Shown here in pieces: positions 16,564-61,281 of a DNA stretch of 64,000 bases. A model generated the notes under the pieces. It did no database searches. It saw nothing but the letters and a program-made list of their open reading frames with translations, and was not told where the DNA came from. Position numbers and translations under genes: made by a program. The stretch's first letter is position 1; the number at the start of each line of letters is the position of its first letter. This stretch comes from a virus: the IMG/VR virus record IMGVR_UViG_3300017971_000002, positions 62,001 through 126,000 of that record. The stretch is one strand, 5' to 3'.

Positions 16564-16794
16564 CTACACTCCTATATGTTCTGGTTTAATCGAAATTGGC
16601 TTCTGAATAACACAAAGACTAATGGCCTCAGACACGGCAACAATATTGTTGGTTTTTAATAACGCAGCAAACTGTTTCTGAACTTGATGTAGATTGTTTT
16701 TTGTTATACAATTACCATGAACCCTAACAACCAATACATCATCTGGCTCCAATCTTAACTTAGTAATTTCCAGTTCATTTATCTTTGGTTCCAT
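16564..16794 (-). CDS. Hypothetical protein
   Basis: 76-residue unknown with DDVLVVRVHGNCITKNNLHQ and a following helical stretch. It overlaps the start side of the polymerase 3' end by 20 bases and sits one base upstream of the GroES-like gene. No domain assigned. Confidence 0.65.
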   Translation of the reverse strand: MEPKINELEITKLRLEPDDVLVVRVHGNCITKNNLHQVQKQFAALLKTNNIVAVSEAISLCVIQKPISIKPEHIGV

Positions 16795-19363
16795 GGACTT
16801 TTTTTCTCCTGGACTTTAGAAATTTATTCAAACTTCCAGCCCTGAAATTTATCTTTCCCCAATTAAGTACATCAAACATCCTTTGAATAACACCAAGAAA
16901 TGATTTCTCAAATTGATAATCATAATCAATCTCAAATATATCATCAAACTCCGTTGGCCAATTGCCTATGAATGCTATGGTGTCTGTATCGAACCTGTTC
17001 TTTGGATTTGTATGTATGTATTTGATTTTTGTCCCATCAGAGACTTTCATGTATCCAAGTTTGTTCTCCTCAATTAAGAAGTTATAATACATGGACGCAC
17101 GAACGTGCATCGGTGTACTCTTTTTAATCTTGATGAATCCACGTTTCAATGTCTTTTCAATTGGCTCTGAATACTTCATGAACCCATACACGCCCTTGTT
17201 AAAGGCTATATCTGGTAGTCGTTGTTTCTTGAATTCTTTTTTAATTGATTTTAATAGAGCTATAACTTTATCCTTATCTGGGTCTTCCCCTTCAAATAGA
17301 CAGTCCACCACCTTCTCAATTTTATCTCGACAAAATGTAGGGGTATCACTTCTCTTTATCTCAACGCCCTTAATCTCTAACTCGGGTTTCTTAAACACGA
17401 CTCCTTTGTTAGCAGCGAGCAGTGAAAGATATTTCTTCTTGGCTAGACAGAACTGCTTGATTATAATTCCCTCTCGTTTTATATTGATCATCTGTTCAGT
17501 ACCAAACCTCTTAGCCCATATGTCGAGTATATTTTCATAAAAAGGTTCAAGTATGTTTTGCTCAATTATAGTCGCAAATTCAATCAGACCCATGTTAGGG
17601 GCAATCGCCTTCTTAATGTTATCAAGGCATATGTAGTTTGAATCAGTGTCTATAATCTTTACCACATCTTCATCAATGGTAATGGCAGGACACCCCGGAA
17701 AGAAAGTTGGCAATAGTTTTGGAACGATCTCTCTAAAATACTTGTTGGTTGTACTTGCGATGAATTGAATTATTTTTCTACCATGTCGGGTCACGACTCT
17801 GGCATTATCAACATCATAGAAATGGAAGAACTTGTTAAGGAGCACCCCATACATAGCATTGATCATAATCTTTCTTATATGTCTCTGAGATTTATAAAAC
17901 TTGGCAAGTTCCTTGTCGCCACTATTCTCTGCCTCTTCAGCAAGTCGTTCAAACTCTTGCTTCTCAGTAAACACGCTCTCAACCGCTGCGGGAAGAACTC
18001 CCTTCTTTCTTCTATAATATACACCATTGATTGGTGACTTAATTAAATCTTCATTTTCAATTTGCTCAACCGTCGGATTGAATACTTTTGTCTCTGGACT
18101 AATGTTGAACATCTGAATCGTTCTTGGATACAAGGATTCAATATCCTCGCCAACTAATGATTTATATAGCCCAGGGGTTGCAGCAACATGAGCCCCCTTG
18201 ACGGCAAATGCTTCAAAATCTTTTTCACCATCTTCATACTTTACATTTTGAAGTTCGTCACCATGTTTCCATAAGCCCAACTCCTTCCACATATCTGTCT
18301 TAACGGTCTTTCTATCGGGCATGACCATGTTTTTCGAATGAAGAAGTTTTAGCATGTATCCCTCTGTTATTGCGACTGACGAGTAAACCTTGTCAATTGG
18401 AATAAGGGACTGAGAGGCAATCTTCAATGATAATTCAATAAACTTTTTCTTGTTTTCAATTCTTTCACAGAGCTGTGTATCTACTATATTATACTCGACA
18501 AATCTATTCCAATCTGTCTTATATACATCATTAATATGTCCCTCTAGTTCTAGCTTTCCTCCGACCTCTTCCTCAAGGGCAACAAAGTTTAATGAATAAG
18601 ACGCAAGCTGGTCGTAGGTGAAATTTTTATATAATTTCATCATGTCAAGTATAACTAGACCGGCAATATTACAATAAAAGTTTTTCTTACCTTTATTCTC
18701 TGTGTTCTTATATGTCACCTTGTTGATTGGCGAAAGGGACACTGTTATTCCATGCGCAAGACAGCGCCTGAGAATGGTTTGTATATCAAACTGTTCTACA
18801 TTCCATCCAGAGATGATATCAAACTTTCTTTTTCGCATCCAGCGAATGAAGTTTTCAAGCATTCGTTTCTCATCTGGAATGTATGTATAGTTTTTTACAA
18901 GTTTAGAATCACCTGTATATTCCGACGTTCCCCATGTATGGGTCTCGCCCGTCTTTGAGGAAATGATTGTAATTAGATTGATTGGATATAATGCCTTTTC
19001 GGGTTCTGGAAATTCATCATCTCCCGCAACCTCAATATCCATATAGGCTATATCAAAATCCTCGACCTTGGGGTCTAGTTCAACTCCCTTGTATCTTTTC
19101 TGAAGAAAACAAATCGACTCTTGCAGATCAGATTCGCAGAGGTTGACCCCTGCTTCCTTGAGGGATTCTATTCGTTTCTTATCTCTGGTTGTCTGGAGCT
19201 TTACTGGATTTCCATATACATCCCTTATATGTGAAGTTCCAGAGTCATCAGAAGCATAATACTCGTATGTATAGTCCTCAACTAGCTTACTTGTCTTACC
19301 ATTGAAGGTTTCCCATAGGTGAATCTTCTTGGTCTTAAAGTCGTAATATACACTTTTGAACAT
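16775..19363 (-). CDS. DNA polymerase, family B (gp43-like)
   Basis: 862 residues, similar to the ~900 of T4 gp43. The 3'-5' exonuclease motifs are YMDIEV (~107-112), ISGWNVEQFD and YNIVDTQLC. Polymerase motif A appears as GEDIESLYPRTIQ, motif B as MINAMYGVLLNKF and motif C as IDTDSNYI. All catalytic acids are present, so polymerase and proofreading activity are expected. The C-terminus is basic (KSRRKKVHGTK). The first Asp of motif A is in EDIESLYP rather than the more common DxxSLYP. Confidence 0.96.
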   Translation of the reverse strand: MFKSVYYDFKTKKIHLWETFNGKTSKLVEDYTYEYYASDDSGTSHIRDVYGNPVKLQTTRDKKRIESLKEAGVNLCESDLQESICFLQKRYKGVELDPKVEDFDIAYMDIEVAGDDEFPEPEKALYPINLITIISSKTGETHTWGTSEYTGDSKLVKNYTYIPDEKRMLENFIRWMRKRKFDIISGWNVEQFDIQTILRRCLAHGITVSLSPINKVTYKNTENKGKKNFYCNIAGLVILDMMKLYKNFTYDQLASYSLNFVALEEEVGGKLELEGHINDVYKTDWNRFVEYNIVDTQLCERIENKKKFIELSLKIASQSLIPIDKVYSSVAITEGYMLKLLHSKNMVMPDRKTVKTDMWKELGLWKHGDELQNVKYEDGEKDFEAFAVKGAHVAATPGLYKSLVGEDIESLYPRTIQMFNISPETKVFNPTVEQIENEDLIKSPINGVYYRRKKGVLPAAVESVFTEKQEFERLAEEAENSGDKELAKFYKSQRHIRKIMINAMYGVLLNKFFHFYDVDNARVVTRHGRKIIQFIASTTNKYFREIVPKLLPTFFPGCPAITIDEDVVKIIDTDSNYICLDNIKKAIAPNMGLIEFATIIEQNILEPFYENILDIWAKRFGTEQMINIKREGIIIKQFCLAKKKYLSLLAANKGVVFKKPELEIKGVEIKRSDTPTFCRDKIEKVVDCLFEGEDPDKDKVIALLKSIKKEFKKQRLPDIAFNKGVYGFMKYSEPIEKTLKRGFIKIKKSTPMHVRASMYYNFLIEENKLGYMKVSDGTKIKYIHTNPKNRFDTDTIAFIGNWPTEFDDIFEIDYDYQFEKSFLGVIQRMFDVLNWGKINFRAGSLNKFLKSRRKKVHGTKDK

Positions 19364-27597: not shown

Positions 27598-27605
27598 TAT
27601 AAATA
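27598..27605 (+). promoter_or_regulatory. Late promoter TATAAATA
   Basis: A T4-type gp55-dependent late -10 element lies directly after the uvsY stop and 38 bases before the acidic protein start. It probably drives the small-protein cluster at 27643-29810. Confidence 0.75.
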
Positions 27606-27642: not shown

Positions 27643-27882
27643 ATGACAGTATTGGATAGATTAAACAAGTACCTCGAAGAGGATGAGTCCAAAGAAGAAC
27701 TCGAAGAAAAGAAGGTGAAGGAGCAGGAAGAGGAAGATAAAGAAAAGGAAGACAAGGAAAAGGATGACGAGGAAGAGTCCAAGGATAAGGACGATTCTGA
27801 GGATAAAGACGATAAAGAAGAAGATGACGAGGAAGAGAAGGACGAGAAGAAAAACGAAAAGAAAGATTGTAAGAAGAAATAA
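27643..27882 (+). CDS. Very acidic/basic low-complexity protein
   Basis: 79 residues, almost entirely Glu, Asp and Lys after an ordered N-terminus MTVLDRLNKYLEED. The first residues resemble the capsid-targeting leaders of the following genes (aromatic, then leucine, then glutamate). AACAGGAGGCATAAA is a strong ribosome site. It could be an internal head or core protein; no domain can be named. Confidence 0.7.
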   Translation: MTVLDRLNKYLEEDESKEELEEKKVKEQEEEDKEKEDKEKDDEEESKDKDDSEDKDDKEEDDEEEKDEKKNEKKDCKKK

Positions 27883-27934: not shown

Positions 27935-28207
27935 ATGAGATTTCTGGATTACATCGGTGAGGCAAAGAGAGGTCCAAACTATTGGACTTTCTCTCTTTAT
28001 GGAAAGGGGAAAAAAGGTTTTCAAATGAAAACCAAAGTGATCGAACTTATTAAGAAACATGGTGGTAAGGTCGAGAACGATTTCCAGACAGGCGCTGGAC
28101 GATGGAACATAGAGGTCGAGATAGATAAGAAAAAAGTTCAACACGGTTCACCGCTTAATGATGCGTTAGTCTCTATGGGGGTTAGTATATCAAGCGGAAT
28201 CGGATAA
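27935..28207 (+). CDS. Predicted capsid-targeted small protein
   Basis: 90 residues. The N-terminus MRFLDYIGEAKRG has the pattern aromatic-x-x-[FY]-[IL]-x-E followed by a small residue, like T4 internal proteins (MKTYQEFIAEA) cut by protease gp21. The mature part has a KKHGGKVENDFQTGAGRWN stretch of unknown function. It lies behind the late promoter at 27598. Confidence 0.7.
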   Translation: MRFLDYIGEAKRGPNYWTFSLYGKGKKGFQMKTKVIELIKKHGGKVENDFQTGAGRWNIEVEIDKKKVQHGSPLNDALVSMGVSISSGIG

Positions 28208-28216
28208 GAGGTACAT

Positions 28217-28588
28217 ATGTCAGATTTAACAAAAGATGCCAGAACATGGATGAATGAGAAGCCAACTGAATTCATCAAAGAGGCAGACGCTTCTGGGTTT
28301 GATAAGATGGCTCGGAAGAACTTCAAGGAGGCCGATACATTGATGAAAAATGTTTCAAAGGTGTTATCTACTCTCAAGAAGGAATGGAATACAAATAAAC
28401 AGTCTGGAACATTACTACGACTCACCCAGGTTCTCAATAGCCTCCGAGATATAAACAGATATACTAAGGGTGATTATTATTCCTCTCCAGAGGCGAAGGC
28501 ATTTGTTAAGTCTTTCGTTCAGGGTGGCGCCAAAAAAGGTGCGTCTGAGGAAGAGAAGGCATTTATCAAATCATTTGTGAGGAAATAA
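28217..28588 (+). CDS. Hypothetical late small protein
   Basis: 123 residues, helical, with two related segments near the C-terminus (EAKAFVKSFV and EKAFIKSFV). An internal PTEFIKEADAS at ~16-26 offers an I-x-E cleavage-like site. AAGAGGTACAT precedes the ATG. Function unknown. Confidence 0.65.
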   Translation: MSDLTKDARTWMNEKPTEFIKEADASGFDKMARKNFKEADTLMKNVSKVLSTLKKEWNTNKQSGTLLRLTQVLNSLRDINRYTKGDYYSSPEAKAFVKSFVQGGAKKGASEEEKAFIKSFVRK

Positions 28589-28589
28589 C

Positions 28590-28802
28590 ATGAAGGAATT
28601 TATAGATAGATTCATACCAAAGATTCCTAAAGAGGAAGTCATACTTGAGACCACGTTCACCAAGCAACATTTCCAGGCGATGGCCAAGGCGATAAAGGAC
28701 GCCAAGACCAAAGAGGAGATGGCAAAGATGATGATCGATATATTTGCGAAGGCGAACCCAAGATTTGATGAGGAAAGATTCAAGAAAGCTGCGGGGTTAT
28801 AA
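28590..28802 (+). CDS. Hypothetical late small protein
   Basis: 70 residues starting MKEFIDRFIPKIPK. The AMAKAIKDAKTKEEMAKMM helix continues the theme of small, lysine-rich late proteins. It begins one base after the previous stop and its own stop overlaps the next ATG. Confidence 0.65.
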   Translation: MKEFIDRFIPKIPKEEVILETTFTKQHFQAMAKAIKDAKTKEEMAKMMIDIFAKANPRFDEERFKKAAGL

Positions 28803-28984
28803 TGGGTCGATTCAAAACTTTTTTAAATGAAAGAAAAGTCAAGAAAGGCATTCAACACAAACAGAAACCAACGGTGTTTGTTCAGGATGTGAATATGCTC
28901 CTTGCAGATGGAGAGGTCGCAACGATTGAGATAACAAAAGTTAGTGATAAAAATTGGACATATCAAATCAATAAAAAAGTATGA
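28802..28984 (+). CDS. Predicted capsid-targeted small protein
   Basis: 60 residues. MGRFKTFLNERK resembles the targeting leader (aromatic, lysine, F-L-x-E). The remaining residues form a short beta-type domain. The ATG overlaps the upstream stop by one base. Confidence 0.6.
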   Translation: MGRFKTFLNERKVKKGIQHKQKPTVFVQDVNMLLADGEVATIEITKVSDKNWTYQINKKV

Positions 28985-29181
28985 AGTTTACAGACTACGT
29001 TACAGAGGGAGTATTCAAGAAGGTCTTTGTCTTGATATTCCAAAGAGGGAGCAACAAGGCGCTTCCTTTTGGTGTATACTATTCAAAGCAGAAAGCTGAA
29101 CAAGCAAGAAAAGATGCTGCTGATTTTACAGGAGATAAGATAACTGACTTCAGAGTAGAGGAGTCCGATATAAAAGGATAG
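28981..29181 (+). CDS. Predicted capsid-targeted small protein
   Basis: 66 residues. The leader MKFTDYVTEGVF has a V-x-E/G site. The mature part, FVLIFQRGSNKALPFGVYYS, looks like a small compact domain of unknown role. It overlaps the upstream stop by four bases. Confidence 0.62.
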   Translation: MKFTDYVTEGVFKKVFVLIFQRGSNKALPFGVYYSKQKAEQARKDAADFTGDKITDFRVEESDIKG

Positions 29182-29185
29182 TCAT

Positions 29186-29491
29186 ATGAACTGGAAAGAA
29201 TATCTTAAAGAAGAACTGAAAGGTAAGATACCTCACACTAAAAATACTCCGATGGATGAATTGAAGGTACAGATTTGGAATATATTCGGAACAGAAACGG
29301 ATAAAAGATGGGGAAACGATCTGAACTTTTCAAAGAAGAACAGAATCGAGATCAAGGGTAAAAATAATAACACAACTTCAATTGAAATAATGTTAGATAG
29401 ATACATAGGAAAACCTTTTCATAAGAAACTTAAGGAACGAGGATTTAAGGTCAAAAGAACTTCGGAAAAGATTATTATAGAAAAAGGATAA
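29186..29491 (+). CDS. Predicted capsid-targeted small protein
   Basis: 101 residues. MNWKEYLKEELKG aligns residue by residue with the T4 internal-protein leader (TYQEFIAE): aromatic, Lys/Gln, Glu, aromatic, Leu/Ile, any, Glu. The mature domain is basic. A near-identical leader occurs in the next gene. Confidence 0.7.
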   Translation: MNWKEYLKEELKGKIPHTKNTPMDELKVQIWNIFGTETDKRWGNDLNFSKKNRIEIKGKNNNTTSIEIMLDRYIGKPFHKKLKERGFKVKRTSEKIIIEKG

Positions 29492-29516
29492 TTTTGGAAA
29501 ATGAAAGGAAGAAATT

Positions 29517-29810
29517 ATGAACTGGAAAGAATATATTAGTGAGGAATTTATAAATGAGGATATAATTCCTCTTGAGGTCAAGGATCTTGAACCCGATCTA
29601 AAAAAGTTTTTCACAAGATTTAAGAGTTCTGTTTTGAGAATAAACTGGATAACCCAAAATAAAAAGATGAATATTGCTCTTGATGCTTCACTTGGAAAAG
29701 GAAGTACATTTTACCCCAAAGATTTGAAACAGATAGCGAAGTTTTCAAATCTAGAATGGATGGGCTTTGATTCCTCAACAAACACTATAAGATTTGTTTT
29801 TAAAAAGTGA
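29517..29810 (+). CDS. Predicted capsid-targeted small protein
   Basis: 97 residues. The leader MNWKEYISEEFIN is almost the same as in the previous gene, but the mature parts differ. AAAGGAAGAAATT precedes the ATG. It ends overlapping the GTG start of the amidohydrolase gene. Confidence 0.7.
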   Translation: MNWKEYISEEFINEDIIPLEVKDLEPDLKKFFTRFKSSVLRINWITQNKKMNIALDASLGKGSTFYPKDLKQIAKFSNLEWMGFDSSTNTIRFVFKK

Positions 29811-30874
29811 TCTACAACTGTCATACACATACATTCTTGGACATTGATATACCAGATAAGTTGCTACCAGCTTACCTTGTAAAAATATTACGCACCAAGC
29901 CGGGCAATAAGTTGATCACTGGGTTTCTTAGTGGGCTTATTCCTTTCACTGATAAAGACCTTCTTCATAGATATGCGACATTCGCACGTACTTGCGATCT
30001 TGGATCCCAGAAAAAGATATTTGAAAAATTAATCAAGTTTTATCCAAAGGGAACAAAATTCATAATACTTCCTATGGATATGGAACATATGGGAGCGGGC
30101 GATGTTCCCAGAGAATATTCCGACCAGATACATGAACTAAAGTTACTTAGAAAACAATATCCAGAACAGGTTATACCGTTCTTTCATGTTGATCCCAGAC
30201 GAACTGGAGTTCTAAGTGAGTTTATGTTTGCGGTAGAACGACATGATTTTCGTGGAGTAAAGCTATACCCACCTTTAGGATATTACCCATATGATAAGAG
30301 ATTGTATCCAATATATCAAATTTGTGAGAATAAAAATCTACCTATACTTGCGCATTGTAGTCCATATAATCCGATCCATTTCAAGGGCAAGAAGAAAGAA
30401 CTAAAGAAATTATTAAGAGATGGAAATTCTAATGTAAAGATTAAGGGTAAGAACAGAAAAGAACTTTGTTCTATGTTCACCAACCCTCTTAACTATCTTC
30501 GGGTGATTAAGGATTTTCCGAAACTAAGAATTTGTTTTGGTCATTTTGGTTCTGCATATATGTGGGATAAGTATCTCGATGATCCCGGAATGAAGGGAAA
30601 CTGGTATCGGATAATAAAGGATTTGATCAAAAGACATGATAATTTTTATACCGATATATCTTTCACATTAAGCGACAGACGATTCTTTCCTTTATTGAAT
30701 AATATTTTAAATGATAAGAAGGTAAGGGATAAGGTGTTGTTTGGTTCGGACTATTATATGGTAGAGATGGAGTCAGACGAGAAAAGATATGGAGTTGAAC
30801 TCCGTTCGTTTATAGGTGAAAAGAAATTCAAAGCAATCGCTACAGACAACCCAAAGAGATTTCTAGGCGAGTAA
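29807..30874 (+). CDS. Amidohydrolase-superfamily metal hydrolase
   Basis: 355 residues with a GTG start overlapping the previous stop. NCHTHTF (4-10) is the HxH metal motif. GVKLYPPLGYYPYD, LPILAHCSPYNP, CFGHFGS and VLFGSDYYM give the remaining His/Asp ligands of the amidohydrolase_2/TIM-barrel family (decarboxylases and hydrolases). No substrate can be read from the sequence. It is the only metabolic-looking enzyme inside the late cluster and has no capsid-targeting leader. Confidence 0.82.
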   Translation: MIYNCHTHTFLDIDIPDKLLPAYLVKILRTKPGNKLITGFLSGLIPFTDKDLLHRYATFARTCDLGSQKKIFEKLIKFYPKGTKFIILPMDMEHMGAGDVPREYSDQIHELKLLRKQYPEQVIPFFHVDPRRTGVLSEFMFAVERHDFRGVKLYPPLGYYPYDKRLYPIYQICENKNLPILAHCSPYNPIHFKGKKKELKKLLRDGNSNVKIKGKNRKELCSMFTNPLNYLRVIKDFPKLRICFGHFGSAYMWDKYLDDPGMKGNWYRIIKDLIKRHDNFYTDISFTLSDRRFFPLLNNILNDKKVRDKVLFGSDYYMVEMESDEKRYGVELRSFIGEKKFKAIATDNPKRFLGE

Positions 30875-30882
30875 TTTTAAAG

Positions 30883-30890
30883 TATAAATA
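30883..30890 (+). promoter_or_regulatory. Late promoter TATAAATA
   Basis: The element sits between the amidohydrolase stop and the uvsW ATG at 30918, spaced for transcription of uvsW. Confidence 0.75.
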
Positions 30891-30917
30891 TCCTTATAGT
30901 TTGTAAGGGTTGAAGAT

Positions 30918-32411
30918 ATGAATGAAATTTTAATTGAAAAAGTGAATCAGGTATATGTACGGGTCAGGTGCCATCTTGATCAGGAATTGGAGCTAAAATC
31001 TTTCCTCAGCTGCCATGTTCCGAATTATATGTATCATCCAAAATTTAGAGCAAAGATTTGGGACGGCAAAGTCTCATTCTTTAATATGCAGAATAAGCTG
31101 CTACCTGTTGGGTTGCTCCCAGACTTCCATAGATTCTGTAAGCAATTTGGTTACAAATATCGTTTCGATTTCGATACATCGGAACTATGTAATGATGTGA
31201 CCATAGAACAAGTGGAGTCATTCGCTAATGGGCTTATGGAAAATACTAGGTACGACCCATACGACTATCAGATCGAGGCGGTTACCAATTCTATAAGGAA
31301 CAAGCGGGGCGTAATTCTTTCCCCCACTGGTAGCGGCAAATCATTGACCATATACATGACAATACGATTACTTCTTGCTCAAGATCCAGATAGAAAAATC
31401 ATTCTTATCGTTCCGACCACATCTCTTGTTGAGCAGATGTATTCGGACTTTCAGGATTATGGATGGTTGAATATTGACTATAAGGTGACTAAATTATATT
31501 CTGGACTAAAGCCAGATTTTAGAAAGAGTGTACTCATAACAACGTGGCAGTCGATACATCGTAAGCAGAAGATTTTCTTTCAAAAGTACGGAGTGTTGAT
31601 GGTTGATGAGACACATCAGGCGAAGGCGCTTTCAATTCAATCCATATCAAAGAAATGCACTGAGGCGGAATATCGTTTTGGATACACGGGTACATTACCA
31701 ACAAATCGCTCCGACTTGTTTAATATACATGGATATCTTGGACCTGTTATTTTCAAACAGATATCCAAAGAGCTAATAGATCGTGGTATACTTTCAAAGA
31801 TTAAAATTGTAAACGTCCTACTGAAGTTTCCAGAGTCCGTTATCCAGAAAAACCGGAACCGCCCGTATAATGAGGAAGAGGACACAATTATAAATCATGT
31901 TGGGCGTAATAAGATATTTGATTTAATATTCAATAATATTCCAGACGGCCAAAACTCTCTGGTGTTATGTAGAAAGATCGAACATTTAAAAATGATTCAG
32001 GAACATCTTGAGCATGTACTTCCTGACAAGTATATGATCGTGAATATATATGGAAAGACGAAACCCGAGGAGCGTGAAGCGATTCGCCATCTCATGGAGA
32101 AGGAGTCGAATATGATCCTTGTGGGGACATATGCTACGATGAGCACCGGAGTAAATATTAGAAAGATGCACAATGTATTCTTTGCGAGTAGTTATAAGTC
32201 CAAGATAAAAGTTCTTCAAGCGATAGGTCGTGGATTGAGAACTCATTCAAGTAAAGAAAAGGTTATAATTTGGGATTTTGTTGATGATTTGACTTGGAAG
32301 AAGCGAACTGGTAACATTGGACATAATCATACATACAAGCACTATCTTGAGAGATTGAAGTATTATGAGGAGCAGGGATTTACATTTTACAATCGAAAAT
32401 TCCAAATATAA
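30918..32411 (+). CDS. uvsW: UvsW-like SF2 helicase
   Basis: 497 residues. An N-terminal domain (1-110) with KFRAKIWDGKVSFFN precedes the helicase core: Walker A SPTGSGKS (135-142), DETH (230-233), YTGTLP, and a second RecA domain with motif VI QAIGRGLRTH. This is the T4 UvsW architecture. UvsW unwinds branched DNA and RNA-DNA hybrids and shifts replication from origin-driven to recombination-driven mode late in infection, consistent with its late promoter. Confidence 0.92.
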   Translation: MNEILIEKVNQVYVRVRCHLDQELELKSFLSCHVPNYMYHPKFRAKIWDGKVSFFNMQNKLLPVGLLPDFHRFCKQFGYKYRFDFDTSELCNDVTIEQVESFANGLMENTRYDPYDYQIEAVTNSIRNKRGVILSPTGSGKSLTIYMTIRLLLAQDPDRKIILIVPTTSLVEQMYSDFQDYGWLNIDYKVTKLYSGLKPDFRKSVLITTWQSIHRKQKIFFQKYGVLMVDETHQAKALSIQSISKKCTEAEYRFGYTGTLPTNRSDLFNIHGYLGPVIFKQISKELIDRGILSKIKIVNVLLKFPESVIQKNRNRPYNEEEDTIINHVGRNKIFDLIFNNIPDGQNSLVLCRKIEHLKMIQEHLEHVLPDKYMIVNIYGKTKPEEREAIRHLMEKESNMILVGTYATMSTGVNIRKMHNVFFASSYKSKIKVLQAIGRGLRTHSSKEKVIIWDFVDDLTWKKRTGNIGHNHTYKHYLERLKYYEEQGFTFYNRKFQI

Positions 32412-32435
32412 AAGACCCCCTTTATGGGGGTCTTT
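32411..32435. terminator. Bidirectional terminator between convergent genes
   Basis: A perfect 10-bp stem AAAGACCCCC/GGGGGTCTTT has a five-base TTTAT loop. It starts at the uvsW stop and lies 21 bases beyond the stop of the minus-strand gene at 32456, so it can end transcripts from both sides. Confidence 0.85.
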
Positions 32436-32455
32436 CGGGATCAGTTGAATTAATT

Positions 32456-32917
32456 TTAATTCAAGTTTTCTAATGTCAATGTCGCTGTCACTGTCGCACT
32501 CTCAACCCGACCAGTCAGGTATACTCCTATCTGATCATTTGCTGTGGCGGAAACAATTGTTGATCCACCGAGCGTTAGGCTTTCGACACCTTCGTATGTG
32601 GCTTTGTCTGGGTCCCAGATTTCTCCACCATGTATCCATCTCATGTTAATCGAATCAAGCTCACCGAAGCCAGCAGATGCTACTGTAACCCCTGCCTGCC
32701 TTACGTCCAGAATTAGTTCCTGGTTTACCTTGTCGGCTGGGTTTACTTTAACACTTGCTTCGACCCTAATAGGTCCAGCAGAAATCGTGTTTACTGCGCT
32801 CGTTCCGGAAAGAGCAAAGACGGAGCCATTGAAAAACCGAGTAGTGTCGAACGGAACAAACTGTGTGCCAGTTGTTGCTGACAATGTAGTCCCTGTTACT
32901 TTGATTATATCGGCCAT
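32456..32917 (-). CDS. Virion-type protein on the opposite strand
   Basis: 153 residues, rich in Thr, Ser, Ala and Val with beta-strand alternation (TLSATTGTQFVPFD, ESATVTATLTLENLN), like phage decoration or tail proteins. AATTCAACAAGGAGAATTAAAACA gives a strong ribosome site. It is the only minus-strand gene after 26872 and has its own late promoter at 33001-33008. Exact role unknown. Confidence 0.75.
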   Translation of the reverse strand: MADIIKVTGTTLSATTGTQFVPFDTTRFFNGSVFALSGTSAVNTISAGPIRVEASVKVNPADKVNQELILDVRQAGVTVASAGFGELDSINMRWIHGGEIWDPDKATYEGVESLTLGGSTIVSATANDQIGVYLTGRVESATVTATLTLENLN

Positions 32918-33000
32918 TGTTTTAATTCTCCTTGTTGAATTGTTATAGCTATATACAGGTTCAAAAATGCATTTTCAGGATGTTGTTAATCATCCAAAAG

Positions 33001-33008
33001 TATTTATA
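33001..33008 (-). promoter_or_regulatory. Minus-strand late promoter TATAAATA
   Basis: TATTTATA on the plus strand is a late -10 element reading left, 84 bases upstream of the minus-strand gene at 32456-32917. It is divergent from the plus-strand late promoter 21 bases away. Confidence 0.7.
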
Positions 33009-33029
33009 GATTAGGGTCTGAAAAAGTTT

Positions 33030-33037
33030 TATAAATA
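33030..33037 (+). promoter_or_regulatory. Late promoter TATAAATA
   Basis: The element lies 27 bases before the start at 33064 and forms a divergent pair with the promoter at 33001-33008. Confidence 0.78.
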
Positions 33038-33063
33038 CTAATAAACCAGGAGAGTTTCCTTTG

Positions 33064-33294
33064 ATGAAGTGGAAAAAGTATTTGACAGAGAAGAAGATCG
33101 TCACTGTCCAGGATTTTGAGGATCCGAAAGACCCGAATGTAAAATATCAGGCTCAGAAGTTTGGAGTTAAGATCAAGTTATTGGATGATGAGGGTATGGT
33201 TCGGGTAACTGGTAAGGAAGAGAATGTTAAGAAGTTTATGCGTAAGATGGGATTTCATTCAATTCTCATTGGTAAGAAATGGATAGACCTATAG
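33064..33294 (+). CDS. Predicted capsid-targeted small protein
   Basis: About 76 residues from ATG 33064 (an adjacent TTG is unlikely). The leader MKWKKYLTEKKI fits the aromatic-K-x-Y-L-x-E pattern. The mature part is a small basic domain with a KFGVKIKLLDDEGMVRV stretch, perhaps KH-like, though that is a guess. Confidence 0.68.
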   Translation: MKWKKYLTEKKIVTVQDFEDPKDPNVKYQAQKFGVKIKLLDDEGMVRVTGKEENVKKFMRKMGFHSILIGKKWIDL

Positions 33295-33303
33295 GAGATG
33301 TAT

Positions 33304-33588
33304 ATGGACTGGAAAGAATATTTAAAGAATGGGTATGGCCCTCCCACTGATCCATTTAAGGGTGTAAAGGATGTTACTAAACTATCTCCCCAAAAAAGAA
33401 AAGACCTTGCAAAACATCTTTCAATGAATAGTATGGGCGATTTAATAAGTTGGGAACATGAATATAGTAAAAAATTGAAAGATGCTAAAAAGAGCAGAGA
33501 TAAAAATGCAATTAAGATTGCTGATGCAAAATTAAAAATTGTATTTGATGCCCAAGTATTTAAGGAGAAGTTTTTGGAGAGGGATTAA
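33304..33588 (+). CDS. Predicted capsid-targeted small protein (variant leader)
   Basis: About 94 residues. ATG 33304 is six bases after ATAGGAG, better spaced than the ATG at 33298. The leader MDWKEYLKNGYG keeps W-K-E-Y-L but has Asn where the cleavage Glu should be, so it may not be cut. The rest is lysine-rich and helical. Confidence 0.66.
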   Translation: MDWKEYLKNGYGPPTDPFKGVKDVTKLSPQKRKDLAKHLSMNSMGDLISWEHEYSKKLKDAKKSRDKNAIKIADAKLKIVFDAQVFKEKFLERD

Positions 33589-33589
33589 T

Positions 33590-34009
33590 ATGGGTTGGTT
33601 AAAATATCTTAGAGAGAAATTCTATACATCGGACGTTGTTCGACCTTATGGTTGGAAAGAATATGTGGAGATATTTGAGAATCCTACCAGAAGTGAGATA
33701 GAGTCAATTAGTAAAACTGATGGCACGGGCGATGTTAGATTCTGTTTTGACTCAAAGTTAAAAATGTTTGCATGGAGGGCGGATATTCTCCATCATGTTA
33801 TTCAGAAGAAATTTCTCCGTGATATGACTTATGCGTTTCTACATGAGAAAAAGAAACCATCGGTGATTCAGGTTGATGACGATTCTTATCCTAGTCCGAA
33901 GACCCTTTCTGATGCAAAAAAGAAAAAACTAGAGACAAAGATCAAAAAAGTTTTTCCAAAAACAAAACGAATAGTATCCATGTTCACAGGGAAAGGATAC
34001 AGAATTTAA
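33590..34009 (+). CDS. Predicted capsid-targeted protein
   Basis: About 139 residues from ATG 33590 (GGAGAGGGATTAAT upstream). The leader MGWLKYLREKFY is followed by a second leader-like PYGWKEYVEIFENP near residue 22, as if the targeting motif were doubled. The mature part includes VRFCFDSKLKMFAWRADILH. Function unknown. Confidence 0.66.
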   Translation: MGWLKYLREKFYTSDVVRPYGWKEYVEIFENPTRSEIESISKTDGTGDVRFCFDSKLKMFAWRADILHHVIQKKFLRDMTYAFLHEKKKPSVIQVDDDSYPSPKTLSDAKKKKLETKIKKVFPKTKRIVSMFTGKGYRI

Positions 34010-38590: not shown

Positions 38591-40336
38591 ATGGCGAGTT
38601 TTTTGGATAATCTAAAGTTTGTTAACCCGTTCTCAAAGGCGTTCAGACAAAATGATCTGATCAACCAGGAGATCCAGCGACAGATTGAGAGCAATTCTCA
38701 GGGTATGTCTGAGATCGAGTATGACTTCTTTTCACCACATACCAAGTATAATATACCCGGTTATGCCTATGGCGATTACACTAACACGGGTATAAACTTC
38801 AATCAAATTTTCATTGACAAGCGACAGAGAATCGCTAAGTATAGGGAAATGTCTTATTACCCAGAGATTTCTGAGGGGTTAGATATAATCTCTGATGAGA
38901 GTATAGTCGAGGATTCAGAGGGTAACATTATTCATCTAAACATTAAGAAGGAGCTACCAAAAAGGGTTGAAAAATTATTCACCAAAGAATTTGAGTATGT
39001 TTCCAAAGATGTATTTGATGTGAATGAGAATTTATATGACCTGTTTTTGAAATGGCTAATTGAGGGTGAGCTTTATGTGGAGCTAATACTTGATAAGAAA
39101 CGAAAGAACGTGATTGGATACAAGGTACTTCCTGCGTTCACCACATATCCTGTATATAATCCTACTGGGTCTATCAAGGGATTTTTACAGAATGTATATG
39201 ATGAACGAACTGGAAAAGATGATCTCAAGGCATTTGAGTCTAATCAGGTTGTATATGTTCATTATGGTAAGTATGGAAGAAATCTACTTGATATTCGTGG
39301 TTATTTAGAGACCTCTATAAGAACATACAACCAGTTAAAGAATCTGGAAGATTCGCTTGTTGTATATAGACTTGTCCGTGCCCCGGAGAGAAGGGTATGG
39401 AACATCGAGGTCGGAAGAATGCCTTCTCATAAAGCAGAGGAATACATCAGGAAGATTATACACAAATATAAGAGACAGCTTAATTATAATCCCGCAACGG
39501 GCGCTATAGACAGTTCAAGAAATGTTCAATCATTATCTGAAGACTTCTGGTTTGCAAGACGAGAAGGTTCTGGAACGAATGTCGAAACATTACAGAGCGG
39601 AATGAATCTTGGTGAACTCGAGGACGTCCGTTATTTTCAGGGCAAGATGTATAAGACATTGAAGATACCAAAGACCAGATGGGATCCACAGCTCGGGCAA
39701 CAGTCTTATCAGTCTGGGCGAGAGATGGATAGAGATGAATTGAAATTTAGTCTATTCATTATAAGATTACAGAAACGATTTAGAAAGCTCATAAAAGATA
39801 CATTCATGGAGCAATTAAAATTCAAGTTTGGAAAAGATGCCAAGATTAAGAAATATATCAATTCAAATTTCTTTGATGTGTATTTTACACAGGCGAACTT
39901 CTTTAAGGAGATCAAGGACTTAGAGTTACTTGAATCCAGATTGAATATACTCGGAACGGCCATTACATATGCCATCAACGAGGACGAGCCTAATAATCCT
40001 CTTGCAAGAGAACTGGTGTTACGTGATTACTTTATGATGTCTGATGAGGAGTGGGCAAAGAATCAAAGATTGCTGAAGAAGGAAAAGAAGGCGATTGAGG
40101 ATATGCCATCCGATGAGGATGAGGAAGGTGATGAAGGAGACGAAGGTGATGAGGAGGGAGGATCTCCAGAAAAGAAACCAGAGGGTCCTGAAAAACCACC
40201 TCCGGAGGAAGCTCCAAGAGAACCCGAAGAGGAAGAGGAGTCATTAGAAATGCCTGGCGATAGGTCATATCATAAAAATAGTAAATTGGTCAAGGATTTC
40301 CTAAAGAGGCCCAGAAAAACCAAGAAGGTATTATAA
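38591..40336 (+). CDS. Portal protein (gp20-like)
   Basis: 581 residues. YYPEISEGLDIISDES, GELYVELILDKKRKNV, VLPAFTTYPVYNPTG, LVRAPERRVWNIEVGRMP, LSEDFWFARREG and MYKTLKIPKTRWDP track T4 gp20 in order. It forms the dodecameric head vertex through which DNA enters. The C-terminal ~80 residues are strongly acidic and Pro-rich (GDEGDEGDEEGGSPEKKPEG), then basic. The start is preceded by AAGAGGTTTATAG. Confidence 0.95.
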   Translation: MASFLDNLKFVNPFSKAFRQNDLINQEIQRQIESNSQGMSEIEYDFFSPHTKYNIPGYAYGDYTNTGINFNQIFIDKRQRIAKYREMSYYPEISEGLDIISDESIVEDSEGNIIHLNIKKELPKRVEKLFTKEFEYVSKDVFDVNENLYDLFLKWLIEGELYVELILDKKRKNVIGYKVLPAFTTYPVYNPTGSIKGFLQNVYDERTGKDDLKAFESNQVVYVHYGKYGRNLLDIRGYLETSIRTYNQLKNLEDSLVVYRLVRAPERRVWNIEVGRMPSHKAEEYIRKIIHKYKRQLNYNPATGAIDSSRNVQSLSEDFWFARREGSGTNVETLQSGMNLGELEDVRYFQGKMYKTLKIPKTRWDPQLGQQSYQSGREMDRDELKFSLFIIRLQKRFRKLIKDTFMEQLKFKFGKDAKIKKYINSNFFDVYFTQANFFKEIKDLELLESRLNILGTAITYAINEDEPNNPLARELVLRDYFMMSDEEWAKNQRLLKKEKKAIEDMPSDEDEEGDEGDEGDEEGGSPEKKPEGPEKPPPEEAPREPEEEEESLEMPGDRSYHKNSKLVKDFLKRPRKTKKVL

Positions 40337-40543: not shown

Positions 40544-41200
40544 ATGCTACTTATTACGGAATATATCGAACATCAAGACCTTGACATTGTATGTGAACAG
40601 GATGATAATGGAAAAGCTAAGGCTTTTCGGATTAAAGGTCCTTTTCTTCAAGCAGAGGTCAAGAATAGAAATGGTCGAATTTACGAGAAGAACCTCCTTA
40701 TGAGAGAGGTTGAATGTTTCAACAAAGAAAAGATTAAAGAGAAAAGGTCATTTGGTGAACTTGACCATCCTCCGTCACCAACAGTAAATCTGGAACGTGT
40801 GTCCCATCTTATTGAATCTCTTTCTATGGAAGGAAACAACGGGATTGGTGTCGCAAAGATTCTGGATACGCCAAAGGGACGAATCGCACATACATTACTC
40901 GAGGCCGGAACAAAACTCGGTGTATCGACAAGGGGTGTAGGTTCTCTTAATGGTCCGAAGGTGAATGATGATTTCAAACTTATAACAGTTGATATAGTTG
41001 CTGACCCATCGGCCCCGGATGCTTTTGTTGATGGTATCTTGGAGAACAAAGAGTTCATCATAAATAACAACAGAATCGTGGAGAAGGCAGTCGATACTTT
41101 GGAGAATAACGTGAAGAAAAACGGTTCCAGAGAGATCGCGGCAGCATTTAGTGATTTTCTTGATAACATCAAGGTCGGCTGGGCTGGACGTAGAAAATAA
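40544..41200 (+). CDS. Prohead core protease (gp21-like)
   Basis: 218 residues. GELDHPPSP gives catalytic His75, LGVSTRGVGS gives Ser128, and DIVADPSAPDAF is the conserved downstream block of herpesvirus/T4-type assemblins. It digests the scaffold, trims the capsid protein and, by inference, removes the leaders of the small capsid-targeted proteins at (I/L)-x-E sites. The gene is closed by the terminator at 41228. Confidence 0.92.
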   Translation: MLLITEYIEHQDLDIVCEQDDNGKAKAFRIKGPFLQAEVKNRNGRIYEKNLLMREVECFNKEKIKEKRSFGELDHPPSPTVNLERVSHLIESLSMEGNNGIGVAKILDTPKGRIAHTLLEAGTKLGVSTRGVGSLNGPKVNDDFKLITVDIVADPSAPDAFVDGILENKEFIINNNRIVEKAVDTLENNVKKNGSREIAAAFSDFLDNIKVGWAGRRK

Positions 41201-41334: not shown

Positions 41335-42177
41335 ATGAGTAAGATTACTGAAAAACTTAAGGAAGTTCTTTCGCCTGAAGATTTAAAAACAATTGAGGAA
41401 GGCATTCAGAAGATGGTGGATGACGAGGTCGCATTGAGAGTCGAGGAAAAGACCAAGGAGCTCGATGAGAAGGCTGAGGAATTTTGCCAGATGAAGATCG
41501 CTGAAGGGGTTGACAAGGAAAAGGAAGCACTTATCGCTGAGTACGATAAGAAGATGGATGAACTCGAGGACACGATGGTCGAGAGACTTGACAAGTTCCT
41601 AGAGGTCGAAATCTCCGAGCAGATTTCCGAGGAAACTCTCAAGAAGATCGCAATCAATGAATCACTGAAGCCCCTCGTGGACGGTATCAAGCAGCTTTTC
41701 GAAGAAAAGTATGTGGAACTGGACTCTGATGGTGAAAAGGCTATTGCAGATAGTAAGGAAGAGATTCAGCAGCTCAAGGATCAGAATTCTGATCTTATGG
41801 CTGAGAAGATCGAACTTGCAAAGCTCGCTGAGGGCGCAGCTATTAAGCTCCTTATTTCCGACAAGACCGTTGATTTGACCGAGACCCAGAAGGATCGTGT
41901 TTCCGCTTTTTGCGAAGGCAAGACTTTTGAGGATGTCCAGGAAAAGATCGACAGATTTGTAGCCATCGTTGAGGATGACACCGAAGATAAAGGTGAAGAA
42001 CTGAACGAGGAAGAGGAAAAGGACAAAGAAAAGAATTTCTCTGATGAGGATGGAATTGACGATTCTGACAAGGACGATCTCAATGAGGAAGAGAAAAAGG
42101 AACAGGAAGAGGAAGAAAAGAAGGAGAAGGCAGGACCTTACGCCGACTTTTTGAGCTCGGCCAATAAATTATTGTAA
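41335..42177 (+). CDS. Prohead core scaffolding protein (gp22-like)
   Basis: 280 residues, almost entirely charged helix and coiled coil (EKLKEVLSPEDLKTIEEGIQ; EEEEKDKEKN), followed by a C-terminal GPYADFLSSANKLL that probably binds the capsid shell. Position between gp21 and gp23 fits T4 gp22. It carries several L-x-E/I-x-E sites for the protease, e.g. FLEVE and ISEET. Confidence 0.88.
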   Translation: MSKITEKLKEVLSPEDLKTIEEGIQKMVDDEVALRVEEKTKELDEKAEEFCQMKIAEGVDKEKEALIAEYDKKMDELEDTMVERLDKFLEVEISEQISEETLKKIAINESLKPLVDGIKQLFEEKYVELDSDGEKAIADSKEEIQQLKDQNSDLMAEKIELAKLAEGAAIKLLISDKTVDLTETQKDRVSAFCEGKTFEDVQEKIDRFVAIVEDDTEDKGEELNEEEEKDKEKNFSDEDGIDDSDKDDLNEEEKKEQEEEEKKEKAGPYADFLSSANKLL

Positions 42178-42237: not shown

Positions 42238-43479
42238 ATGGAAAAAGATTATGTTAGAAAGCTGGTCGAAGATTGGAGCAGGGAAGACATCGGAAGGATG
42301 TCAGTCGGCGACATTTCTGATGACTATGTAAAAGAAAACATGGCCATTTTGTTAGAAAACCAAAAGACTGCTGACCTTCAGGAAGAACTTTTTGAAGGTA
42401 GTAAGGCTATCACAACTTCTGTGGCTTCTCAGACTCACGCTGGGCAGGACGGTGCTTTTTCGCCGATCTCTCTGGCTCTGGTAAGACGCACATTTCCTGC
42501 TTTGTTCGCCAACCAAGTTGTGGGCGTGCAGGCCATGACGGGTCCCGTTGGGCTCGCCTATGCTCTCCGCTTCATTTATGCGGACGATGGAAATAGTGAA
42601 GAAGCTGCATTTGATGTTGTGCCTCAGTATTCTGGATACACTGGCTCCGATGCTACTTCTGCTGGTGGTACATCTGGTACAGCTGATGCTGGAACAGGCG
42701 TTGACACTTCAGCCGCTGAAGCATGGAACATTGTAAGAAACAACACCGATACATCTCTGATTAAGACTCCGGAACTCGGACTCAAGATTGATCAGACTGC
42801 TATCACAGCAAAGACCAGGAAACTGGCTGCTAGTTTCTCACTCGAATCCGCTCAGGACATCAAAGCGATGCACGGTGTGGACATTGAGAGAGAGATGGTG
42901 AATGTTCTCCAGTATGAGGTTCAGGCTGAGCTCGACAGGGAACTGTTGAAGGCCATGAAGGACGCTGCGTCTGACGCAGGTACCTACACTGCCTCTGCAT
43001 CAAGCGGTCGTTGGACCCAGGAGCATTTCGCTAACCTCGCCAACAAGATAATCCTCGAGTCCAATAACATTGGAACCAGAACGAGGCGTGATGTTGGTAA
43101 CTTTGTTGTTGTTTCAACAAGGGTTGCAACTGCTCTGCAGGCACTGTCTAACAATGGTTTGTTCACTGCCAACAAAGCCAATGTGAATCCTTCAAACACA
43201 TTCGCTGAGATTGGAACACTGAACGGAACAATTAGGGTCTTCCGTGACACCTATAACACTGATAACAACGTTCTGGTTGGATATAAGGGTCCTGGTACTG
43301 CCGATGCCGGTATTATCTTCTCGCCTTATGTAACCGGTCTGTTCAACAGGGCTATGGCTCAGGAAGATTTCACTCCAAGAATCGGGGTTATGTCTAGGTA
43401 TGCCATAACTAGCAATTTGCTTGGTGCATCTCGTTATTACACGAAGTTCGCCGTTGCTGGTTTGACCAACCTGATTTAA
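42238..43479 (+). CDS. Major capsid protein (gp23-like)
   Basis: 413 residues from ATG 42238, preceded by CAACAAGGAGATAATAAA (an in-frame TTG at 42217 is not needed). The N-terminal ~53 residues form a helical delta domain ending QEELFE/GSK, an L-x-E cleavage site where the protease would trim it. The T4-conserved block ALVRRTFPALFANQVVGVQ then TGPVGLAYALRF follows, and the C-terminus ends FAVAGLTNLI. This is the building block of the head shell. A terminator follows. Confidence 0.95.
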   Translation: MEKDYVRKLVEDWSREDIGRMSVGDISDDYVKENMAILLENQKTADLQEELFEGSKAITTSVASQTHAGQDGAFSPISLALVRRTFPALFANQVVGVQAMTGPVGLAYALRFIYADDGNSEEAAFDVVPQYSGYTGSDATSAGGTSGTADAGTGVDTSAAEAWNIVRNNTDTSLIKTPELGLKIDQTAITAKTRKLAASFSLESAQDIKAMHGVDIEREMVNVLQYEVQAELDRELLKAMKDAASDAGTYTASASSGRWTQEHFANLANKIILESNNIGTRTRRDVGNFVVVSTRVATALQALSNNGLFTANKANVNPSNTFAEIGTLNGTIRVFRDTYNTDNNVLVGYKGPGTADAGIIFSPYVTGLFNRAMAQEDFTPRIGVMSRYAITSNLLGASRYYTKFAVAGLTNLI

Positions 43480-54814: not shown

Positions 54815-54819
54815 TAGAT

Positions 54820-55935: not shown

Positions 55936-55938
55936 ATA
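55931..55938 (+). promoter_or_regulatory. Late promoter TATAAATA
   Basis: The element overlaps the preceding stop and lies 20 bases before the gp14-like ATG. Confidence 0.78.
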
Positions 55939-55957
55939 CTAATAAACAGGAGTAAAT

Positions 55958-56766: not shown

Positions 56767-56952
56767 ATGGACTGGAAAGATTTTATAATTGAAAAATATT
56801 ACATTACTGATATAGGAGAACCTCCTAAAGGACTACCTATTAAAAGATATGGAGTCTGGGACAAAGATGGTAATGTAATAGATACATCAAACGATGTTGA
56901 GGCATTAAAGAAAAAATATAATGTATCAAACGTGGTAAGGACAAAACGATAA
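56767..56952 (+). CDS. Predicted capsid-targeted small protein
   Basis: 61 residues inserted between gp14 and gp15 genes. The leader MDWKDFIIEKYY keeps the W-K-x-F-I-x-E pattern of the cluster at 27935-33588. The mature part is a small domain with KRYGVWDKDGNVIDTSNDVE. AAGGAGTTAAATT precedes the ATG. Confidence 0.68.
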   Translation: MDWKDFIIEKYYITDIGEPPKGLPIKRYGVWDKDGNVIDTSNDVEALKKKYNVSNVVRTKR

Positions 56953-58560: not shown

Positions 58561-59122
58561 GCGTAGTTTCAAACAGTTCTACCGACAGGAGAAGGAAGAG
58601 AAGATTTTTGAAAAGACTTTTGAGAAGTTTTATAAGAGAGGTCATTTTGGAAAGATTAAGAAAGACCTTATCCGTGGACAACAGAAGGACTGGTATGATA
58701 AATTGAAAAATCTCATTGACGATAGAGACTATGGATCATTACTAATGGCCGTCGGACATAGAAAGAATAAGGTGTCAAGGGAACTATTTAGTAGACTGAC
58801 GGGCATAAACATCAAACAGAAAACCACAAAGATAATTGAAAAGACATTGAAAGATTTTTGTCTTAGGGAGAGTCATTTGGATTTTGAAAAATTGAAAGAG
58901 AATAAGAAAACTCTCACCGATGATGAGAGAAAGCTCTGCATAGATAAGAAGGCGATGTGGCATAATGGACCAAAGGGTCAGGCAACGCCCGCTGTTTGGA
59001 AGAGTATAGATGAGAAGGGAAACGTAACCTTCGTCACCAATACACATAGGGCGTTTAACACTGCAAAGACTTTAGAGGGTGCTATAGAGAGGTTTCATAA
59101 GTTTATAAAAGGGACGGCATGA
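58553..59122 (+). CDS. Hypothetical late protein
   Basis: 189 residues, strongly basic and helical. A C-terminal AMWHNGPKGQATPAVWKSID and HRAFNTAKTLEGAIERFH look like a small folded domain. It overlaps gp16 by eight bases and the next gene by four. Function unknown; a packaged or DNA-associated protein is possible. Confidence 0.65.
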   Translation: MSRRSFKQFYRQEKEEKIFEKTFEKFYKRGHFGKIKKDLIRGQQKDWYDKLKNLIDDRDYGSLLMAVGHRKNKVSRELFSRLTGINIKQKTTKIIEKTLKDFCLRESHLDFEKLKENKKTLTDDERKLCIDKKAMWHNGPKGQATPAVWKSIDEKGNVTFVTNTHRAFNTAKTLEGAIERFHKFIKGTA

Positions 59123-59709
59123 ATTTTCGTCAACTCATAGTCGAGGGTCCAGCTAATAAGGTAGAAATGATCAGGACCGATGTACTCCGAATGTTTAGGG
59201 AATACGACCGAAGTAATCTAACCTTTAGTAAACATTCGCCAGAAACATATCAGAAATTAAAAAAGGACATACTCAAGAAAGGTATAAAGGTACCACTTAC
59301 CATTACATATGATTTACACCGGGAATGGGCGTTGGTCACAGAGGGGAATCATCGAATTCAGATAGCCATAGACACTGGCATTAAAAAGCTCCCAGCTACC
59401 GTTTGGTTTCGCGGAGACCTAGAAAGGGGCGCCGGGGTACGAGGTTATCAGAAGGAGTTCGGACATCCCCCAGAATGGGTCAAGCCATCAGAGATCGGAA
59501 TTGTAAATAACGTGGCACAGGTGAAGAAATTCTACACCAAACCCAAGGCCTCGCCCAGACCCAAGGTGACCAAGAAATTATTGGAACCAAAGAAACCTCC
59601 AACGATGAAACAGCGAAGGCAGAAGTTTGCCAAACTGGTCAAGATTCAGCCAAAGAGCAAGAACAAAGAAGATATACTTTCCCAAATAATTAAATCGTTT
59701 GAAATATAA
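59119..59709 (+). CDS. ParB/sulfiredoxin-like domain protein with capsid-targeting-type leader
   Basis: 196 residues. The leader MNFRQLIVEGPAN has an I-x-E/G site. Residues ~35-95 (LKKDILKKGIKVPLTITYDL, LVTEGNHRIQIAIDTGIKKL) match the ParB-N/sulfiredoxin fold with its (E/D)GNHR motif, which binds nucleotide or DNA in ParB-type nucleases. The C-terminal 60 residues are very basic. Possibly a packaged, ejected DNA-binding protein. Confidence 0.72.
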   Translation: MNFRQLIVEGPANKVEMIRTDVLRMFREYDRSNLTFSKHSPETYQKLKKDILKKGIKVPLTITYDLHREWALVTEGNHRIQIAIDTGIKKLPATVWFRGDLERGAGVRGYQKEFGHPPEWVKPSEIGIVNNVAQVKKFYTKPKASPRPKVTKKLLEPKKPPTMKQRRQKFAKLVKIQPKSKNKEDILSQIIKSFEI

Positions 59710-61047: not shown

Positions 61048-61281
61048 ATGAATTTTAACCAATACCTAGTTGATCAGCTTTGTGAGGGTAGTACAGAGGA
61101 CGCAAAGGGCGCACTCGAGGCTATCATAGGTTCCCTCAAGAAGAATGACAATCTTGAGAAGGATGGGAAGGAGATGCTGAAGATGGCACAGGGTATCATG
61201 GACTATTACAAGAAAGAAAAGTCCTTCTCACCCGATCAGGCCAAATGGATCTTCAATACCTCAAAGTCCCTTTTTAAATAA
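61048..61281 (+). CDS. Small late protein, possible internal head protein
   Basis: 77 residues. MNFNQYLVDQLCEGSTED resembles the cluster leader, with an L-x-E/G site at residue 13. The remainder is a helical domain. Preceded by AACACAGGAGATACATC. Function unknown. Confidence 0.6.
   Translation: MNFNQYLVDQLCEGSTEDAKGALEAIIGSLKKNDNLEKDGKEMLKMAQGIMDYYKKEKSFSPDQAKWIFNTSKSLFK

Follow-up and report, generated by a model that had tools for sequence, protein, structure and literature searches.

The uncultured virus of IMG/VR record IMGVR_UViG_3300017971_000002 (202,503 bases), of which bases 62001-126000 form the 64-kb stretch analyzed here (the window), is by its gene content a T4-like virus of bacteria and encodes at least 26 proteins that begin with a shared N-terminal leader. 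This leader set is very probably the T4-type capsid-targeting propeptide, greatly expanded into an arsenal of internal proteins (IPs). Internal proteins are a phage's first-minute weapons, those of T4 each blocking one restriction variant; what is new relative to T4, as read from the genes, is their expansion into a large, enzyme-containing set. A preliminary description of the window had proposed at least ten leader proteins of T4 type. The battery is real, and it was undercounted, since it extends over the genome and has roughly three times the listed size; the T4-type reading is supported by the leader itself, its excess over chance, operons with late promoters, the prohead machinery, basic mature parts, leader-free homologues and a leader-bearing cyanophage protein present in virions.

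We propose that 26 or more proteins (perhaps about 35), most of them unrelated, would be made late in infection with a tag of 9-11 residues (an aromatic residue, two polar residues, an aromatic or aliphatic residue, Leu/Ile/Val, any residue and Glu). The tag would bind the gp22 scaffold core, so that the proteins would be enclosed in the prohead, where the gp21 protease would cut after the Glu and release basic mature proteins among the DNA. These would enter the next host along with the genome, and a CCA-adding enzyme among them would be on hand as early as the first minute of infection. For this phage we infer packaging, cleavage and injection, as well as an anti-host function.

The leader and its fit to the T4 signal

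We fixed a strict motif, M-x(1-3)-[FWY]-x-x-[FYVLI]-[LIVY]-x-E, and applied it to the 379 open reading frame (ORF) starts that a crude caller returned for the whole record. Twenty-five starts match, and MGRFKTFLNE (window 28802), absent from the ORF set because an antisense ORF masked it in the picker, brings the number to 26. Chance predicts 0.6 matches when each start is shuffled and 1.4 when columns are shuffled (maximum 7 in 1000), and at interior Met residues the motif occurs at 2 of 1144 positions; all nine leader starts quoted in the preliminary description are present where it placed them. Because the expression was composed after the gene starts had been inspected (the Glu at P1 being part of the motif definition), the less circular tests are those of the Glu following the front half of the motif, of the contrast between regions and of the cyanophage S-SM1. 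Of 40 starts that match the front half, 25 have Glu at the cut position, where the background is 7.0% (p = 1.6e-19). None of the 192 credible ORFs in record blocks 18.3-47.7, 56.2-89.1, 142.5-162.6 and 169.1-202.5 kb has a leader, compared with 24 of 124 in the rest. In S-SM1, the sole match among 311 ORFs is MKKFSAFLNEAER, the start of a known virion protein discussed below. About eight further starts are near-misses with one residue shifted or changed (MRRFKDFYLNE, MRNFKEFYLQE, MNWKSYLMTE, MKFKQYIICE, MDWKEYLKNG, MDYKNYLKDG, MNFNQYLVDQ and MSRRSFKQFYRQE).

The alignment to T4 internal proteins made earlier stands position by position: IPII and IPIII (MKTYQEFIAEA) fit the strict motif with equal spacing. 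The T4 signal is a 10-residue N-terminal peptide with aromatic or hydrophobic residues at 4, 7 and 8 and Glu at 10 (IPIII numbering); the 26 starts have this relative spacing, and MGRFKTFLNE has the identical numbering. Residues 4 and 7 of the T4 leader serve targeting, and residues 8 and 10 processing (PMC9026906), and they match the aromatic, aromatic/aliphatic, Leu/Ile/Val and Glu positions of this phage. P3 is Leu in 15 of the 26 leaders, Ile in 6, Val in 4 and Tyr in 1, which was counted as agreeing with the (L/I)-x-E cut motif of gp21. The mature parts carry a net charge of +7.3 per 100 aa, as opposed to +0.6 in other genes (p = 4.5e-4), and such basic character is expected of proteins packed with DNA. 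Where leaders share residues, codons are identical at a frequency of 0.53, barely above the 0.48 predicted by codon usage, and the similarity is therefore held at the amino-acid level.

Prohead genes, late promoters and leader operons

The leader would need the T4 prohead machinery, and the presence of gp20 to gp23, all above Pfam cut-offs in a profile search, thus supports the T4-type reading. The four genes lie together in the window:

38591..40336, + strand: gp20 portal (PF07230, 4.3e-97)
40544..41200, + strand: gp21 prohead protease (PF03420, 3.6e-29; motifs GELDHPP and GVSTRGVG kept in relative G002)
41335..42177, + strand: gp22-type scaffold (PF25623, 1.1e-15)
42238..43479, + strand: gp23 major capsid protein (PF07068, 4.2e-81)

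This one phage combines a gp21 protease, a gp22 scaffold and a gp23 with a candidate propeptide cut, LFE/GS (residue 53; LFE/AS in the metagenomic contigs G001 and G002), a position that is the counterpart of the end of the T4 gp23 propeptide. By gp21 the closest isolates are cyanophages (50-54% identity); G001 and G002 are nearer relatives, with gp23 68-69% identical.

Most leaders lie outside the window. A minus-strand operon at record 47.7-56.2 kb has them on 9 of its 13 credible genes, and others occur at record 162.7-169.1 kb, in a region at 2-18 kb that is rich in tRNA genes and among the tail genes. The T4 late promoter TATAAATA is present in 51 copies in the record, of which 39 lie 5-120 bases ahead of a start. 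It precedes gp20, gp22, gp23, the window operon and several single leader genes; eight leader genes have a copy directly upstream, the one at the head of the 47.7-56.2-kb operon among them. No copy was found upstream of the leader genes at record 2291 and 13500 in the tRNA region. By this promoter sequence most leader genes are predicted to be expressed late. Within the window, the promoters and leader genes are as follows (a slash marks the predicted cut):

27598..27605, + strand (record 89598): late promoter TATAAATA, head of the window's leader operon
27643..27882, + strand: very acidic small protein MTVLDRLNKYLEE..., heading the window operon; no Pfam match
27935..28207, + strand: leader protein MRFLDYIGE/AKR, 90 aa
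28217..28588, + strand: 123-aa protein with a possible displaced leader, PTEFIKE/A, at residues 16-23 (compare T4 YQEFIAE/A); weak, outside the strict motif
28802..28984, + strand: leader protein MGRFKTFLNE/RKV, 60 aa, IPIII spacing; overlaps its neighbors' stop/start codons
28981..29181, + strand: leader protein MKFTDYVTE/GVF, 66 aa; DUF7336/phrog_3002-like domain from residue 14-15
29186..29491, + strand: leader protein MNWKEYLKE/ELK, 101 aa
29517..29810, + strand: leader protein MNWKEYISE/EFI, 97 aa
33030..33037, + strand (record 95030): late promoter TATAAATA, head of the second leader operon
33064..33294, + strand: leader protein MKWKKYLTE/KKI, 76 aa; ATG start (an upstream TTG in the ORF list)
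33304..33588, + strand: MDWKEYLKN-G, Asn at the cut position, 94 aa
33590..34009, + strand: leader protein MGWLKYLRE/KFY, 139 aa; fifth member of a paralogous family
56767..56952, + strand: leader protein MDWKDFIIE/KYY, 61 aa
58553..59122, + strand: leader-like start MSRRSFKQFYRQE, 189 aa; the G001 homologue begins MSLSFKKFYKEE
59119..59709, + strand: leader protein MNFRQLIVE/GPA, 196 aa; weak ParB_N-like similarity
61048..61281, + strand: near-miss leader MNFNQYLVDQLCE/GS, 77 aa; from residue 14 on, 66% identity to a G002 protein with another N-terminus

Window 33304 does have the Asn reported at its cut position (MDWKEYLKNG), and its product is predicted to be targeted, with doubtful cleavage. 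From its composition and operon position, the product of 27643..27882 is possibly a core protein analogous to T4 gp67. Inside the leader cluster, window 29807-30874 encodes a 355-aa protein without a leader that resembles a metal-dependent amidohydrolase by eye (NCHTHTF start, GTG).

Several points weigh against a capsid-targeting role for the whole set. P1 is Asp or Asn instead of Glu in two members, and P3 is Tyr in the leader of the CCA enzyme and Val in several others, where T4 has strictly Leu/Ile; cleavage may therefore be incomplete. Packaging might also be poor for several large cargo proteins, of 395-490 aa. In the part of the source available to us, the virion detection of the leader-bearing cyanophage protein T4-GC190 is not accompanied by a demonstration of cleavage after Glu (PMC3037559).

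The leader might instead address another late structure (tail, baseplate or membrane) or serve as a general N-terminal interaction motif of late proteins, its likeness to the T4 signal being coincidental. Some leader genes do lie among tail genes (window 56767 and 59119; record 134762), but we consider this improbable given the exact spacing match to IPII and IPIII including the Glu, the gp21/22/23 set, the basic mature parts and the cyanophage enzyme found in virions.

Still less probable is that the leaders are relics of repeated duplication from one ancestor, with no current targeting function. Five proteins do form a paralogous family in which leader and mature domain are both shared, and record 168044 and 168287 are a duplicated pair, but leaders persist where most mature parts are unrelated, and the codon identity given above is close to that expected. 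Even among these five the leader is not of one type, four members carrying MKFxDxLxE-type leaders and window 33590 MGWLKYLRE, with E9 kept throughout. The earlier statement that the mature parts differ from each other is accordingly correct for most, the exception being the domain common to these five, some of which lie outside the window; and window 33590 has no second leader, the motif so described (YGWKEYVEIFENP) being the VExFxNP block common to the family. A search for relatives of the family found none, and Foldseek with its AlphaFold2 model (pLDDT 72) gave no match at E <= 0.001 in PDB or BFVD.

The capsid-targeting reading is also in keeping with the modularity of the leader, which is separable from its cargo, as leader-free homologues exist for the DUF7336 protein, the CCA enzyme (Tunturi_5, Vibrio phage D181 and KVP40) and a cytidylyltransferase. 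Record 164336 (MGRFIDTYYE/GRN) and its G001 homologue (MKFKEFYLTE/GRN) have different leaders and align from the predicted P1 Glu onward. In window 28981 the DUF7336-like domain begins at residue 14-15, and the leader therefore precedes a stand-alone domain; tblastn of this protein against phages gave no matches.

That the leaders are an artefact, produced by the choice of start codons and by fitting the motif to inspected starts, is favored only by the late composition of the expression and is hardly credible. The shuffle and interior Met controls, the front-half Glu test, the 192 leaderless ORFs of the same genome and the S-SM1 match obtained with the expression fixed beforehand already largely refute it.

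Cargo enzymes and tRNA repair

The product of record 51287-52720 is apparently a complete CCA-adding tRNA nucleotidyltransferase. It matches PF01743 (PolyA_pol head, 2.5e-30), PF12627 (RNA-binding, 4.7e-11) and PF01966 (HD, 1.4e-5), as well as NF009814 (5e-71, though under its curated cut-off), and its alignment to PDB 6ibp shows the catalytic GGAVRD and DxD intact; no near relatives were confirmed in viral contigs. The phage has about 37 tRNA genes (record 738-24000), and CCA is encoded in 34 of 37, so the enzyme is not needed for their maturation and repair is its natural role. One tRNA (record 16766-16841) has the anticodon CUA; the amber recoding that this brought to mind is ruled out, as TAG is an ordinary stop here and ends 36 of 268 credible genes. 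CCA enzymes of jumbo phages have been discussed as agents of RNA repair against host nucleases (PMC7824862), and Cas12a3 immunity cleaves the CCA tails of tRNAs, the viral means of resistance being, according to the authors, yet unknown (PMC12851939). We tentatively suggest, as a possibility short of even odds, that the enzyme is injected with the DNA and immediately repairs the tRNAs of both host and phage, serving as a counter-defense, loaded beforehand, to immune systems that cleave the 3' CCA tails of tRNAs; a particle-borne CCA enzyme would then be one means of resistance to Cas12a3 tail cleavage. The leader makes this counter-defense idea directly testable.

Other cargo includes an AAA+ protein that is distant kin of the leader-free T4 NrdC.10 (record 54719-56191) and an FtsH/Pan-like AAA ATPase (record 134762-135637). 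PADLOC matches of the AAA proteins were set aside, as they look like generic AAA similarity. The minus-strand gene at record 49735-50376 (MKFTDLLNE/EQA) has by eye a faint look of an ADP-ribosyltransferase (YRGH, VFVTTAPAKASVFG), and its product could be a T4 Alt analogue; it matches only phrog_11975/15932, of unknown function. Pfam and PDB gave no match for an ADP-ribosyltransferase domain, tblastn against phages gave none for the protein, and a single-sequence AlphaFold2 model was unusable (pLDDT 32).

Comparison with known systems

With the strict motif unchanged, isolates have few leaders: three each in T4 and DSL-LC03, two each in KVP40 and P-TIM40, one in S-SM1 and none in S-CAM3, S-PM2 and HTVC008M. 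The G001 fragment has four, with several near-misses of the MKFKEFYLTE type in one run, and G002 has two; the habit is therefore one of the lineage. Viral contigs contained 35 stretches matching a DNA pattern for M[ND]WKEY[LF]; 34 loci had no called strict leader start, and on contig L112 the two called leaders are different sequences of the contig. Among the papers searched, none was found that describes a leader battery of this size in one genome; for T4-related phages at least ten internal proteins are reported (PMC12373910).

Compared with T4 IPI-IPIII (PMC9026906; PMC12373910), this phage shares leader length, spacing, the pattern of aromatic, hydrophobic and Glu residues, the gp21-gp22-gp23 system and small basic mature proteins. 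It differs in number (at least 26, against three in T4 by the same expression), in having several leader operons and in carrying recognizable enzymes as cargo; no sequence relation of the mature parts to the T4 IPs was found. Two observations in cultured phages stand beside this comparison. T4 gp61.1 (AF158101 18966-19130), annotated as hypothetical, starts with the signal-like MKTFKEFIKEDMVAG (MKTFKEFIKED) and is possibly an overlooked internal protein, and a methyltransferase-like protein of the Vibrio phage KVP40 (39187-39834) starts with MKQFCNFLAEV and is a possible leader-bearing enzyme.

The nearest parallel for an enzyme behind the same leader is T4-GC190, a putative cytidylyltransferase of cyanophages (S-SM1, S-BM1, P-TIM40), although S-SM1 has a single strict leader gene. 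The protein starts with MKKFSAFLNEAER in S-SM1, where we identified it through the S-BM1 protein annotated T4-GC_190, which it matches at 88%, and with MRFLDFIKEAKE in P-TIM40, whereas the S-CAM3 homologue is without a leader. Mass spectrometry detected T4-GC190 in purified S-SM1 virions (PMC3037559); we found no report in the literature remarking on its leader.

In phiKZ-like giants such as SPN3US (PMC5694885), many head proteins likewise lose N-terminal propeptides to the prohead protease and are ejected into the host, but SPN3US-type propeptides often exceed 100 residues and have an A/S-x-E motif, as opposed to 9-11 residues and L/I/V-x-E here. The uncultured huge phage LR756502.1 (642 kb) also seems to carry a leader battery; within its first 381 kb a slightly wider motif finds 19 leader-like starts where 3.0 would be expected. 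These starts (e.g., MSRIRKYKEFITES and MIKKWNQFINES), some on likely enzymes, differ from those of this phage in a longer basic lead-in ahead of the aromatic residue; its putative protease, a 699-aa ORF, is weakly S77-like and under the Pfam cut-off.

Overall, at least 26 tagged proteins including a tRNA-repair enzyme suggest that an unusually large toolkit travels in the particles and enters the host with the DNA. As a simple sequence flag, the leader could single out delivered proteins among the hypothetical genes of such genomes, and a count about eight times that of T4, enzymes included, points to particle-borne delivery as a major and mostly unrecognized strategy of environmental T4-like phages and perhaps of huge phages.

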